Under the pieces are notes generated by a model that had not been told where the DNA came from, searched no databases, and saw only the letters and a program-made list of their open reading frames with translations. A stretch of 64,000 bases of DNA from Streptococcus alactolyticus (GTDB lineage Bacteria; Bacillota; Bacilli; Lactobacillales; Streptococcaceae): positions 62,001 through 126,000 of the forward strand of contig NZ_JAAXMT010000010.1 of the NCBI RefSeq assembly GCF_012277075.1, written 5' to 3'. This document shows, one piece after another, positions 18,777 through 63,241 of the stretch (positions are counted from its first letter, which is position 1; each line of letters starts with the position of its first letter). Both the position numbers and the translations under genes were made by a program.

Positions 18777-20051
18777 ATGGCTGATACTTTTAACTTTGAC
18801 ATTGATAAAATCGCAGATAATGCAATCACAAAAACAGACAAAACAACCGAAATCATCGTAGCAACTGATACTTCAGCAACTGGTCAAGTCTCTTTTTACG
18901 ACAAACTGACCCCTGAACAACAATCAGCAATCACAGCCAAAGCTCCTGCTTTAGTTGATAATTTTGTTGCTGACCAAAATGCTCTGCTTGATTTTGGAAC
19001 ATCTGCTGTTGAAGAAGTTAACACAACCGTCAACCGCATTTTGGCTGAGCAAAAAAAACTTGAAATTCCACAAGTTGATGACCTGCTCAAAAACGCTAAC
19101 CGCGAGTTAAACGGCTTTATCGCCAAATACAAAGACGCTAAGCCTGCTGAGCTCGAAAAGAAACCAAATTTCCTACAAAAGCTCTTTAAGCAAAGCAAAA
19201 ATAGCCTGCAAGAATTCTATTTTGATTCACAAAATATCGAGCAAAAAATGGATGGTATGGCTGCCGCTGTTGTCAAACAAGAAGAAATCTTGGCTCGCAA
19301 CATCGTCTCAGCAGAAATGCTAATTGAAGACAACAACAAATCTATTGAAAACTTGGTTGGCGTTATCGCCTTTATCGAAGCTTCTCAGACAGAAAGTGCC
19401 AACCGTGCGCAAACTCTTCAAAATGAACTTGCAACACTTGATAGCGCAACGCCTGATTACCAAGTAAAATCTGACGAGCTAGCTCGCATGACCGAAGTCA
19501 TCAATACGCTTGAACAACAGCACACTGAATACCTCAGTCGCCTTTACGTTGCTTGGACAACCACACCGCAAATGCGCAACATGGTCAAAGTCTCATCAGA
19601 TATGCGCCAAAAACTTGGCATGCTCCGTCGCAACACCATTCCGACAATGAAATTATCAATTGCACAGCTCGGTATTTTGCAACAATCCGTCAAATCTGGC
19701 GTGACTGCTGATGCTATTGTCAATGCTAATAACGCTGCGCTTCAAATGCTTGCTGAAACGAGCAAAGAAGCTATCCCTATGCTCGAACGCACTGCTCAAA
19801 GCCCAACCGTTTCTATCCAATCTGTCACAGCTCTTGCTGAGAGCCTCGTCGAACAAAACAACAGTATTATCGCAGCTATCGACAACGGTCGAAAACAACG
19901 TGCTCAACTCGAAGCAGCCGTTGTAAAATCCGCAGAAACCATTAACGACTCTGTTAAAATTCGTGACCAAAAAATCGTCGAAGCCCTTCTTAACGAAGGC
20001 AAAGAAAGTCAAGAAGAAGTCGAAAAAATAAACGTCACAGAAGAAAAATAA
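18777..20051 (+). CDS. TelA family toxic anion resistance protein
   Basis: This 424-residue soluble, almost entirely alpha-helical protein has extensive coiled-coil (AEQKKLEIPQVDDLL; TLQNELATLDSATPDYQ) and the TelA signature region VAWTTTPQMRNMVKVSSDM near residue 260. TelA homologues are linked to tellurite resistance and to bacteriocin/antibiotic tolerance in Gram-positives. Mechanism is unknown. GGGAGG lies six bases upstream of the ATG. It is co-transcribed with the xpaC-like gene and ends in a strong terminator. Confidence 0.88.
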   Translation: MADTFNFDIDKIADNAITKTDKTTEIIVATDTSATGQVSFYDKLTPEQQSAITAKAPALVDNFVADQNALLDFGTSAVEEVNTTVNRILAEQKKLEIPQVDDLLKNANRELNGFIAKYKDAKPAELEKKPNFLQKLFKQSKNSLQEFYFDSQNIEQKMDGMAAAVVKQEEILARNIVSAEMLIEDNNKSIENLVGVIAFIEASQTESANRAQTLQNELATLDSATPDYQVKSDELARMTEVINTLEQQHTEYLSRLYVAWTTTPQMRNMVKVSSDMRQKLGMLRRNTIPTMKLSIAQLGILQQSVKSGVTADAIVNANNAALQMLAETSKEAIPMLERTAQSPTVSIQSVTALAESLVEQNNSIIAAIDNGRKQRAQLEAAVVKSAETINDSVKIRDQKIVEALLNEGKESQEEVEKINVTEEK

Positions 20052-20088
20052 ACTAAAAAGCGAGGAGAACCTCGCTTTTTAGTTTATT
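20047..20088 (+). terminator. Terminator of xpaC-telA
   Basis: AAACTAAAAAGCGAGG-AGAA-CCTCGCTTTTTAGTTT forms a 16-bp perfect stem that includes the telA stop codon region. Confidence 0.9.
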
Positions 20089-20145
20089 TTTCACTGCATG
20101 ATTACGCTTTACAGCTCACAATACTAGCCCATCAATTTTGCTTTG

Positions 20146-60562: not shown

Positions 60563-60633
60563 GATATGACACCCCTATCTTTTTCATACAGTAGTTTTAA
60601 AGATTTTGTGTGAAAAATCAATTGATTTTAGAA

Positions 60634-60837
60634 CTATTTATCGTCCTTTTTAACCATATTTTTAACGCCTTCGATAGCCCCTTCAACAGCCTCTTTGGCA
60701 TCTTTGGCAACTTCTTTAACTTTTGAAACGCCTTTTTCAGCGGCTCCTTCTTTTTCGGTTTTTTTATCATCAGTTACTTTTCCGACACCTTCTTTAATAG
60801 CACCTTTAGCTTGATTAAGTTTTTCTTCTACTGACAT
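60634..60837 (-). CDS. CsbD family stress protein
   Basis: This 67-residue hydrophilic protein opens [20 protein letters not shown] and is rich in Lys, Glu and Ala, with no hydrophobic segment, typical of CsbD proteins that rise in general stress. Function is unknown. TGGAGGGTACACT precedes the ATG. It is the last gene of the Gls24 operon. Its leader repeats the TTAGATTATT motif found before glsB. Confidence 0.9.
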
Positions 60838-60908
60838 AGTGTACCCTCCATTGGGAAATTAGATTATTGAAAATGAACGTTTTTAAACTTTTTTAGGCAT
60901 AAAAGAAT

Positions 60909-61466
60909 TTAGTGAACTCTTGGTTCTGCTTTAGCAGTCTCTTTAGTATCTTCGGCAACTCCTTTAACTTTTTCCTTTGCAGCCGAGAGGCCATCACTCA
61001 ATCCCTCTTTTGCGCTTTCAAACTTATCGGAAGTAAATTTACTTGTTGATTCAACAACTCCAGTTGCTCGATCTTGCAGGCTTACTGAGTCTGCTTCATG
61101 TTGCTCTTTAGTCTTGATATCAACAACATCTACATTAACTTCAACCACTTCCAAATTAGTCATATTAGAAATTTCTGAAACAACAATCTCTTTGATTTTC
61201 TTGTATAATTCAGGAACATTCTTTTGATATTCGACAACTACTTTCAAATCCACAGCAACTTGCTTTTTACCAACTTCAACATTGACTCCGCTTGCAACGT
61301 TATCAGTATTGATAAGTTTTCCAGTTAGTTTTGAGAAAAAGCCGCCATCAATATCCAGTAAACCTGGAACATTTTCTAAAGAAAGACCAATAATTTTTTG
61401 AATGACTTTATCTTCATAGGTCAATTCGCCTTTTACTTCTTTTACTTTTTGTTCTACATTTGACAT
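60909..61466 (-). CDS. Asp23/Gls24 family envelope stress protein
   Basis: This 185-residue protein has an Asp23 core at ~10-120 (LTYEDKVIQKIIGLSLENVPGLLDIDGG; VNVEVGKKQVAVDLKVVVEYQ) and a ~60-residue Ala/Lys/Glu amphipathic C-terminal tail (ESAKEGLSDGLSAAKEKVKG). Asp23 is held to the membrane by AmaP and protects the envelope at alkaline pH and other stress. The start at 61466 (MSNVEQK) is preferred over one three codons earlier. It follows the DUF2273 gene by 14 bp. Confidence 0.93.
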   Translation of the reverse strand: MSNVEQKVKEVKGELTYEDKVIQKIIGLSLENVPGLLDIDGGFFSKLTGKLINTDNVASGVNVEVGKKQVAVDLKVVVEYQKNVPELYKKIKEIVVSEISNMTNLEVVEVNVDVVDIKTKEQHEADSVSLQDRATGVVESTSKFTSDKFESAKEGLSDGLSAAKEKVKGVAEDTKETAKAEPRVH

Positions 61467-61480
61467 ATAAATCACCTTTA

Positions 61481-61651
61481 CTATTTAAATAATTGTTTCT
61501 GTTGAATATAATATCCAATTCCAACTCCTAGAGTGGCGCAAATCAAGACAAATAAAGTCTTAAAAAAACCATAGGATAGGATGAAGCACGCTAAGATAGC
61601 ACCTGCCAATCCGGAAAGAAATAGATATTGGTATTTTTTAAACCATTCCAT
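61481..61651 (-). CDS. DUF2273 family small membrane protein
   Basis: This 56-residue protein starts MEWFKKYQYLFLSGLAGAIL, with two transmembrane helices (~8-29 and 31-50) and a short polar end (QQKQLFK). It matches the DUF2273 proteins always found between amaP and asp23. Its size falls below usual ORF cut-offs, so it is easily missed. It sits 12 bp after amaP and 14 bp before asp23. Confidence 0.88.
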   Translation of the reverse strand: MEWFKKYQYLFLSGLAGAILACFILSYGFFKTLFVLICATLGVGIGYYIQQKQLFK

Positions 61652-61663
61652 TTTTTTACTTCC

Positions 61664-62293
61664 TTACTCTACACGACTAACAGTTTTTTTACGTGGTGGT
61701 TTAGGCTTGTATTCTTTTACAGAAATATACAGTTTTACACGATGATTCATTCCAAAAAACTGTTTCAATCCATCAGCTATCTCATCTTTAATTATTTGAG
61801 TTCGTTTAATAATGTTGTCTGATGGAAGCATTTGTCCTTCTACATGAACTAAACATTTATTCTTACGACAGTTTACCTTAATAGTAGGATCCTTTATAAA
61901 ATTGTGATTAGCAACCACACAACGTACAAATCCTTCAATAGCTGAATTTTTTAATTTTAGGTTCCCATCGGCATCAGGTAACTGAATCTCTAAATATTGT
62001 TTAGGATAAAAGAGTGTAACAAGCATTAGAAACAATACTACAGCTGAAAGTACTAGAGCACCCCAGAAAATATATCTTGAAAGATAAAATTCTAAAAAGG
62101 AATTTTTATTCCAACCAACTAAATGCAGTCCTAAGCCGCTGACTTTATGATAATCTAGCAAAATAGGAATCAAAATCGTCAAGATTAAAATACATAAAAT
62201 AAGGTAAAATATTTTTTGTTTTTTGACATATTGAATCCTTTCATCAATAGAATTTGAATCTATTCCTGTCAAGAAAGGTTCAAGTTCAATCAT
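61664..62293 (-). CDS. amaP: Alkaline shock response membrane anchor protein AmaP
   Basis: This 209-residue protein has two transmembrane helices (~27-46 and ~70-97) and a cytosolic DUF322-like domain (~115-195; NLKLKNSAIEGFVRCVVANHNFI, VKLYISVKEYKPKPPRKK). The layout matches AmaP, which tethers Asp23 to the membrane. CTAAGGAAA precedes the ATG. The end of the glsB gene runs into this start without a stop in one frame, probably because of sequence errors upstream. Confidence 0.9.
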   Translation of the reverse strand: MIELEPFLTGIDSNSIDERIQYVKKQKIFYLILCILILTILIPILLDYHKVSGLGLHLVGWNKNSFLEFYLSRYIFWGALVLSAVVLFLMLVTLFYPKQYLEIQLPDADGNLKLKNSAIEGFVRCVVANHNFIKDPTIKVNCRKNKCLVHVEGQMLPSDNIIKRTQIIKDEIADGLKQFFGMNHRVKLYISVKEYKPKPPRKKTVSRVE

Positions 62294-62478
62294 TTTCCTT
62301 AGGAAAAATGATACTACTGAAACAACAATAACCGCTCCTAGATTGATGGAATTAATGCCATTCCAGCTAGACTAGGTCCCCATGCACCGAAAAGTGATTG
62401 TCCAACAGATGAACCGACTAAACCTGCAAGATATTAGCGATTATTCCCATGGAATCTCCCTTTTTAGTGATTCCACCT

Positions 62479-62519
62479 CGTAATAACTCGTATAGCATAC
62501 ATTATACGAAGTTATACGA
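62479..62519. other. loxP-type linker, copy 1 (454 paired-end linker)
   Basis: A 41-bp sequence starts CGTAATAACTCGTATAGCAT and ends ATACGAAGTTATACGA. It contains the loxP spacer GCATACAT (62495-62502) between arms, the left arm missing one T of a TT pair. This is the Roche 454 Titanium paired-end linker with a homopolymer deletion. Confidence 0.93.
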
Positions 62520-62623
62520 GGTCCCCATGCACCGAAAAGTGATTGTCCAACAGATGAACCGACTAAACCTGCAAGATATTAGCGATTATTCCCATGGAAT
62601 CTCCCTTTTTAGTGATTCCACCT

Positions 62624-62664
62624 CGTAATAACTCGTATAGCATACATTATACGAAGTTATACGA
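62624..62664. other. loxP-type linker, copy 2 (454 paired-end linker)
   Basis: Identical to copy 1, including the missing T, and placed at the same junction (CCACCT before, GGTCCCC after). Confidence 0.93.
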
Positions 62665-62843
62665 GGTCCCCATGCACCGAAAAGTGATTGTCCAACAGAT
62701 GAACCGACTAAACCTGCAAAGATATTAGCGATTATTCCCATGGAATCTCCCTTTTTAGTGATTCCACCTGCAATAAGACCGATAAGTCCTCCTACGATAA
62801 TAGCCCAAAGCATAATTTCTTCCCCTTTCTAAATTGTGGAAAG

Positions 62844-62873
62844 TTAGATTATTTGGAAAATCAAATAATCTAA
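62844..62873 (-). promoter_or_regulatory. 12-bp perfect hairpin in the glsB leader
   Basis: TTAGATTATTTG (62844-62855), GAAAAT loop, CAAATAATCTAA (62862-62873), ~20 nt before the ribosome site of glsB. Confidence 0.6.
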
Positions 62874-62905
62874 AGAGTTATATTTTAGCTAAAGTATTTT
62901 TTATA

Positions 62906-62979
62906 TTAATCTTAACAATCATAAGATTAACATAAGATTAATATATATATAGTATAGGTTAATAAAAATGATAAGTCAA
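62906..62979 (-). promoter_or_regulatory. Promoter of the Gls24 stress operon with repeated operator
   Basis: TTGACT (62974-62979), 17 bp, TATACT (62951-62956) on the minus strand. At the start site, two direct 11-mers CATAAGATTAA (62920-62930 and 62931-62941) abut, and TTAATCTTA (62906-62914) is inverted to the first. This looks like a response-regulator (OmpR-type, 11-bp period) operator. Confidence 0.6.
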
Positions 62980-63029
62980 ATAAAATGATCGCGCTTACAA
63001 AAAAATAGAATGAAATCTGTTAATCGTTT

Positions 63030-63043
63030 TGCAATCGATTGCA
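63030..63043. promoter_or_regulatory. 14-bp perfect palindrome, LacI/cre-like
   Basis: TGCAATCGATTGCA is perfectly symmetric with a central CG, the general shape of LacI-family operators. It fits only a relaxed cre consensus. Confidence 0.4.
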
Positions 63044-63241
63044 TATATTTACAAGTATATTTCTGATATGATTCTTGTTGTTTTTTGAACAGTTTTGTAA
63101 ATACTCTACATATATTGGTTATTATTATCAGACCATTCTGACAATTGAATAATCCATCAATAAAACCTTTGATTATGGTGGTATGACCATAAGATTTTTG
63201 GCCAATTAAAACGTTAAAAAAAAACGCCCTAAGAAGTAAGA

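Follow-up and report, generated by a model that had tools for sequence, protein, structure and literature searches.

Two loxP-bearing sequences interrupt glsB in this genome and separate three copies of one short gene segment, and the question is whether this arrangement belongs to the bacterium or was introduced during sequencing and assembly. The window analyzed here, meaning the whole stretch of 64,000 nucleotides, covers positions 62001-126000 of contig 19, within a genome of 1.698 Mb in 29 contigs. The gene names amaP, csbD and glsB are provisional, in part taken over from an initial annotation of this DNA. The region is almost certainly an artefact that stems from a Cre/lox paired-end (mate-pair) library, and not a biological feature. 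The argument starts from what can be read directly in the assembly, namely the identity of the linker, the array itself, the recurrence of the linker at other places and an intact paralogue of the broken gene.

Structure of the array

The initial annotation had described three segments and two linkers, and its coordinates and lengths were exact. The features are as follows.

62200..62374, no strand assigned: left flank, comprising the detached 3' part of glsB and the beginning of the neighbouring amaP-like gene; one base fewer than the paralogue at each of 62211, 62291 and 62339
62375..62478, minus strand: glsB segment copy 1, 104 bp, its A run shorter by one A than in copy 3 and in the contig-25 paralogue
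62479..62519, no strand assigned: linker 1, loxP-bearing, 41 bp, equal to the 42-mer printed in PMC5199103 minus one T of a TT pair
62520..62623, minus strand: glsB segment copy 2, 104 bp, letter-for-letter equal to copy 1
62624..62664, no strand assigned: linker 2, 41 bp, same as linker 1 including the missing T
62665..62769, minus strand: glsB segment copy 3, 105 bp, running on without a break into the 5' part of glsB and, along all of the segment, the same as the contig-25 paralogue
62586..62813, minus strand: chimeric ORF of 75 aa, the first part of GlsB (Transgly_assoc, PF04226) followed by linker-encoded RITSYNVCYT and out-of-frame sequence

The array has a period of 145 bp, and the distance from 62375 to 62665 is 290 bp, in agreement with the shortening of about 290 bp given in the initial annotation. 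When compared, copy 3 differs from copies 1 and 2 by a single extra A within the A run. Since copies 1 and 2 are identical, their errors arose once and were then duplicated. An independent homopolymer error in each copy was considered and ruled out, as the two copies agree fully with each other and so do the two linkers.

The ORF at 62586-62813 fuses the start of GlsB to the linker-encoded peptide. It scores 20.9 bits against PF04226, below the cut-off of 25.3, and the family is matched by the intact 79-aa paralogue on contig 25 (38.5 bits) and by one relative (39.7 bits).

Identity of the linker

The 42-mer is printed as a Roche Cre/lox circularisation adaptor in PMC5199103, which also places the same adaptor in Roche/Illumina hybrid libraries. 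For 454 Titanium paired ends, PMC6992861 describes the use of 42-bp loxP linkers together with Cre circularisation and re-shearing, and it likewise covers an Illumina Cre-Lox variant; in PMC3507753, read pairs are classified by the LoxP linker. The window copies share 41 of 42 bases, in order, with the Roche 454 Titanium linker as printed in PMC5199103, including both outer arms beyond the lox core. The sole difference is one deletion in 42 positions, a T of the TT pair absent from both copies, in agreement with the earlier reading of a Roche-type loxP paired-end linker minus one T. By chance, a sequence of 64 kb would contain a given 42-mer with one base deleted about 1e-18 times. A scan of the window for 21 bases of the linker, with as many as 3 mismatches allowed, matched the two array sites alone, with 0.01 matches expected, and a search of the window for the full 34-base lox site, allowing substitutions only, returned no match because one T is missing from the linker.

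The lox core is common to the window linkers and to bacteriophage P1 loxP. A natural lox site of the phage P1 type, either by itself or within a mobile element, was weighed as an alternative source. In a phage collection, 14 records match the linker query; for 12 of these, which include P1-like phages, 33 to 37 of the 42 bases agree. Lox-like matches are also common on enterobacterial plasmids: 676 of 5426 complete E. coli genomes have a match, with 667 of 685 places on plasmids, and a plasmid collection yields 661 records. The bases adjoining the core differ, however. The 12 phage records cover query positions 3-39 at most (P1 record X03453.1 matches 3-39), whereas in both window linkers the two opening and the three closing bases of the adaptor are present; the P1 bases beside the lox core were not found in the window linkers, which continue to both adaptor ends. 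Since these outer bases match the adaptor and not the P1-like records, the linker points to the adaptor rather than to phage DNA. Moreover, Pfam, the one family resource applied here, gave no phage family among four neighbouring ORFs, two of which match (Transgly_assoc and Asp23); for the amaP-like ORF there was no Pfam family match. The site is also restricted to this assembly within the genus: a 23-base part of the linker (up to 1 mismatch) was absent from 146 other genomes, the present one being the only positive among 147 searched. A natural lox site is thus extremely improbable.

The remaining two phage records are of Lactococcus phage Q33 and match over 41 bases. In this complete record, the 41-base match to the 42-base linker (JX564242.1 17544-17584; L167:1501-1541) overlaps an annotated portal gene at its end and is probably the same artefact.

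Linkers elsewhere in the assembly

A search for the linker across the whole assembly, in line with a proposal of the initial annotation, revealed 11 linker cores, the two of the window included, at 8 places on 6 of 29 contigs (21-base core, up to 3 mismatches): two on contig 13, three on contig 14, two on contig 15, one on contig 17, two on contig 19 and one on contig 27. As a control, the pattern read backwards gave 0 matches in the assembly. The linker is therefore present at several unrelated places in this assembly and absent from the related genomes. None of the 11 is a perfect 42-mer (0/11); the TT pair is represented by one T in five cases and by three T in two, and the other four are shortened or altered.

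This distribution bears on the possibility that glsB carries a Cre/lox scar or cassette from real genetic engineering. The core is indeed loxP, and an in-frame loxP scar also encodes ITSYNVCYT; a real yeast Cre/lox scar reads TTLNITSYNVCYTKLL (PMC4704724). As the peptide is the product of any loxP read in that frame, it does not on its own mark 454 linkers, contrary to its proposed use as a linker signature in protein databases. Against an engineered scar, the outer bases equal the library adaptor (PMC5199103), linkers lie at 8 places on 6 contigs, one loxP arm is one T short, and the flanking segment is triplicated. Engineering is thus highly improbable, and these four points uphold the earlier rejection of a real scar.

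The flanks expected of one circularised fragment, its end before the linker and its start after it, were found at the window array, on contig 15, at position 335361 of contig 14 and on contig 17, and also, with a longer fragment, on contig 13. Contig 15 repeats the build of the window array, three segments with two linkers between them, but with a segment of 79 bp; here copies 1 and 2 agree and copy 3 has two substitutions. At contig 14:335361, a 110-bp segment occurs on both sides of one linker (3 mismatches in 108 aligned bases), and on contig 17 a 101-bp segment flanks one linker that lacks its first 10 bases (1 mismatch in 90 aligned bases). An additional partial linker in the opposite orientation was noted at contig 14:334837, where the arrangement of the flanks is ambiguous.

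On contig 13, the two linkers are 1273 bp apart. Between the copies on either side of the first linker there are 5 differences in 998 positions, so that an expectation of identical first two copies at all three triple sites failed here. Beyond the second linker, 16 of 751 positions distinguish the last copy from the adjacent one, with no gaps; this last copy encodes LTKIDGTAKGG, the other two LTIIDGTAKCV. The former is presumably the proper FtsY motif, and hence we take the last copy to be the right one. At contig 13:4800-8200 (L130), two linkers thus lie among repeats of an ftsY-like stretch, the last of which departs from the earlier copies by about 2% substitutions, and an ftsY-like gene is accordingly also misrepresented in the assembly.

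End-linker-start flanks were not found on contig 27 or at contig 14:23510, and no direct repeats surround the linker at either place. At both, the flanks have matches in multi-copy sequence at other positions of this assembly. At contig 14:23510, two flank matches on contig 14 sit 272 bp apart, and for contig 27 one match on contig 14 spans the linker, with an estimated 20 or so bases fewer on the linker side. These matches suggest false overlaps between linker-ended contigs.

The consequences are of data quality only: glsB is recorded as broken and triplicated without a biological cause, seven further places in the same assembly carry linkers, and protein records built on such ORFs would be chimeras.

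The linker in other public genomes

In a collection of species representatives, the exact linker occurs in 109 stretches, and the 80 stretches listed represent at least 9 organisms. Candidatus Paracaedibacter symbiosus PRA9, Legionella tunisiensis, Gemmata sp. IIL30 and Litoribacter populi carry this adaptor within contigs or at contig ends, yet their linkers are perfect 42-mers, in contrast to those of the present assembly. Among the matches listed for nine other linker-bearing genomes, which were picked because each holds a perfect linker, every row shows a two-base run at the TT position, and two have a substitution. The 109 stretches hold 138 exact linkers, of which 42 are no more than 60 bp from the end of their stretch; the other 96 were tested for repeats. 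A direct repeat within 1500 bp was found for 31 of the 96 and none in that range for 65, and long fragments would leave no direct repeats at this range. Repeats touching the linker on both sides are confined to 2 of the 96, both in one Litoribacter contig.

In L. populi XAAS-A1, L038:194-622 and L063:147-557 each contain four perfect linkers with three identical units of 87 bp or 81 bp between them, near the start of small scaffolds. Such tandem linker-segment arrays resemble that of the window.

Among viral contigs, the exact linker was present in 4 stretches. Of 20 E. coli records listed, 15 match positions 3-39 alone, like P1, and 4 match all 42 bases; the full match is seen in NZ_CP010242.1, NZ_CP011343.2, NZ_CP011342.2 and NZ_CBTO010000001.1, and two of these, the records of E. 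coli K-12 GM4792, have two linker places each. In the plasmid collection, six places in NZ_LT559118.1 (Nonomuraea gerenzanensis, 11.85 Mb) match the linker query. Among the titles and abstract openings listed in a literature search, no description of the linker as a contaminant of bacterial assemblies was recognised, and such a paper may exist.

Origin of the tandem arrays

We infer a small-circle origin as the most likely mechanism. A glsB fragment of about 104 bp would have been given loxP adaptors and closed into a small circle through a single linker, and reads from this circle would run segment-linker-segment. Linkers bearing indels may then have slipped past trimming, such that untrimmed reads reached the assembly. 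The loop consisting of the end of the segment, the linker and the start of the segment would have been entered twice in the contig, between a left contig and a right contig holding its own, different copy. The lack of perfect linkers here, and the one or three T at the TT pair in seven of the 11 against two bases in every row listed for the nine other genomes, fit trimming having removed those that were perfect, but do not prove it.

Three observations count against this explanation. The linkers on contig 27 and at contig 14:23510 are without flanking direct repeats, and another route is therefore needed there; the substitutions at contig 13, contig 14:335361, contig 15 and contig 17 are atypical for pyrosequencing; and the rarity of both-side repeats in public genomes with perfect linkers argues against a general rule.

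The same letters in copies 1 and 2 imply one common source, which may be a single consensus reused by the assembler or a single physical concatemer. In the latter case the artefact would be the same, yet the tandem unit would have been formed in the library, from a nicked small circle by strand displacement or by PCR, rather than by the assembler. The shared errors of copies 1 and 2 fit a shared template, and the identical units in L. populi L038 and L063 are of the same kind. However, an assembler reusing one loop consensus gives the same result, and the third copy is different on both contig 19 and contig 15, as would be the case if the right contig had a consensus of its own. A library concatemer is thus a real possibility, though not the expected outcome. 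A broader proposal is that arrays whose first units share their errors (glsB and contig 15, together with the identical units of L. populi, where contigs with three such linker-segment units indicate that tandem arrays recur elsewhere) reflect a recurrent physical side-product of the Cre/lox procedure, in which short circles are copied to give concatemers before sequencing. This proposal is doubtful at present; if true, tandem arrays could serve as markers of genes that were damaged in public assemblies.

The initial annotation attributed the missing bases to pyrosequencing homopolymer errors. Homopolymer shortfalls are indeed seen, on contig 19 and in the TT runs of the linkers, although those in the array arose once and not repeatedly. 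A pyrosequencing origin of the reads is likely but unproven, because hybrid libraries use the same adaptor and the copies at contig 13, contig 14:335361, contig 15 and contig 17 differ by substitutions.

The contig-25 paralogue and the flanks of glsB

Contig 25 carries an uninterrupted 79-aa GlsB ORF, and this intact paralogue in the same assembly, together with the printed linker and its 8 places on 6 contigs, supports the reading that an assembly artefact breaks glsB. Of 21 genomes searched, counting this one, 20 have a GlsB homologue, and the present genome has one more on contig 17 (67%); the gene is intact in both relatives whose ORFs were inspected.

Contig 25 is 98.2% identical to the left side of the array over 1888 aligned positions and 97.8% identical to the right side over 462, both alignments extending a few bases into the linker. 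The right alignment has no gaps and the left one six. Setting aside the gap at the first linker base (62479), each of the other five corresponds to one base missing on contig 19, at 60842, 62211, 62291, 62339 and 62427; that at 62291 adjoins a substitution and that at 62427 lies inside copy 1. Four of the five fall within 279 of 1875 bp (p about 0.002 under an even spread, for an interval picked after seeing the data). The initial annotation, which describes the array, is too narrow an account of the damage: judged against the paralogue, it extends beyond the array through one-base shortfalls in the left flank, at 62211-62339. Owing to these shortfalls near glsB, the start of the neighbouring ORF (61664-62293) differs from that of the paralogue and of two relatives.

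A cassette of about 2.2 kb (csbD-like, asp23, amaP-like and glsB) occurs twice in the genome, at contig 25:31698-33924 and at 60604-63116 of the window, with about 98% identity, and on sequence grounds looks like a recent duplication. Apart from this region, a near-perfect 50-bp palindrome (92% self-complementary) at 20043-20092 of the window overlaps the end of the ORF at 18777-20051 and is possibly a terminator.
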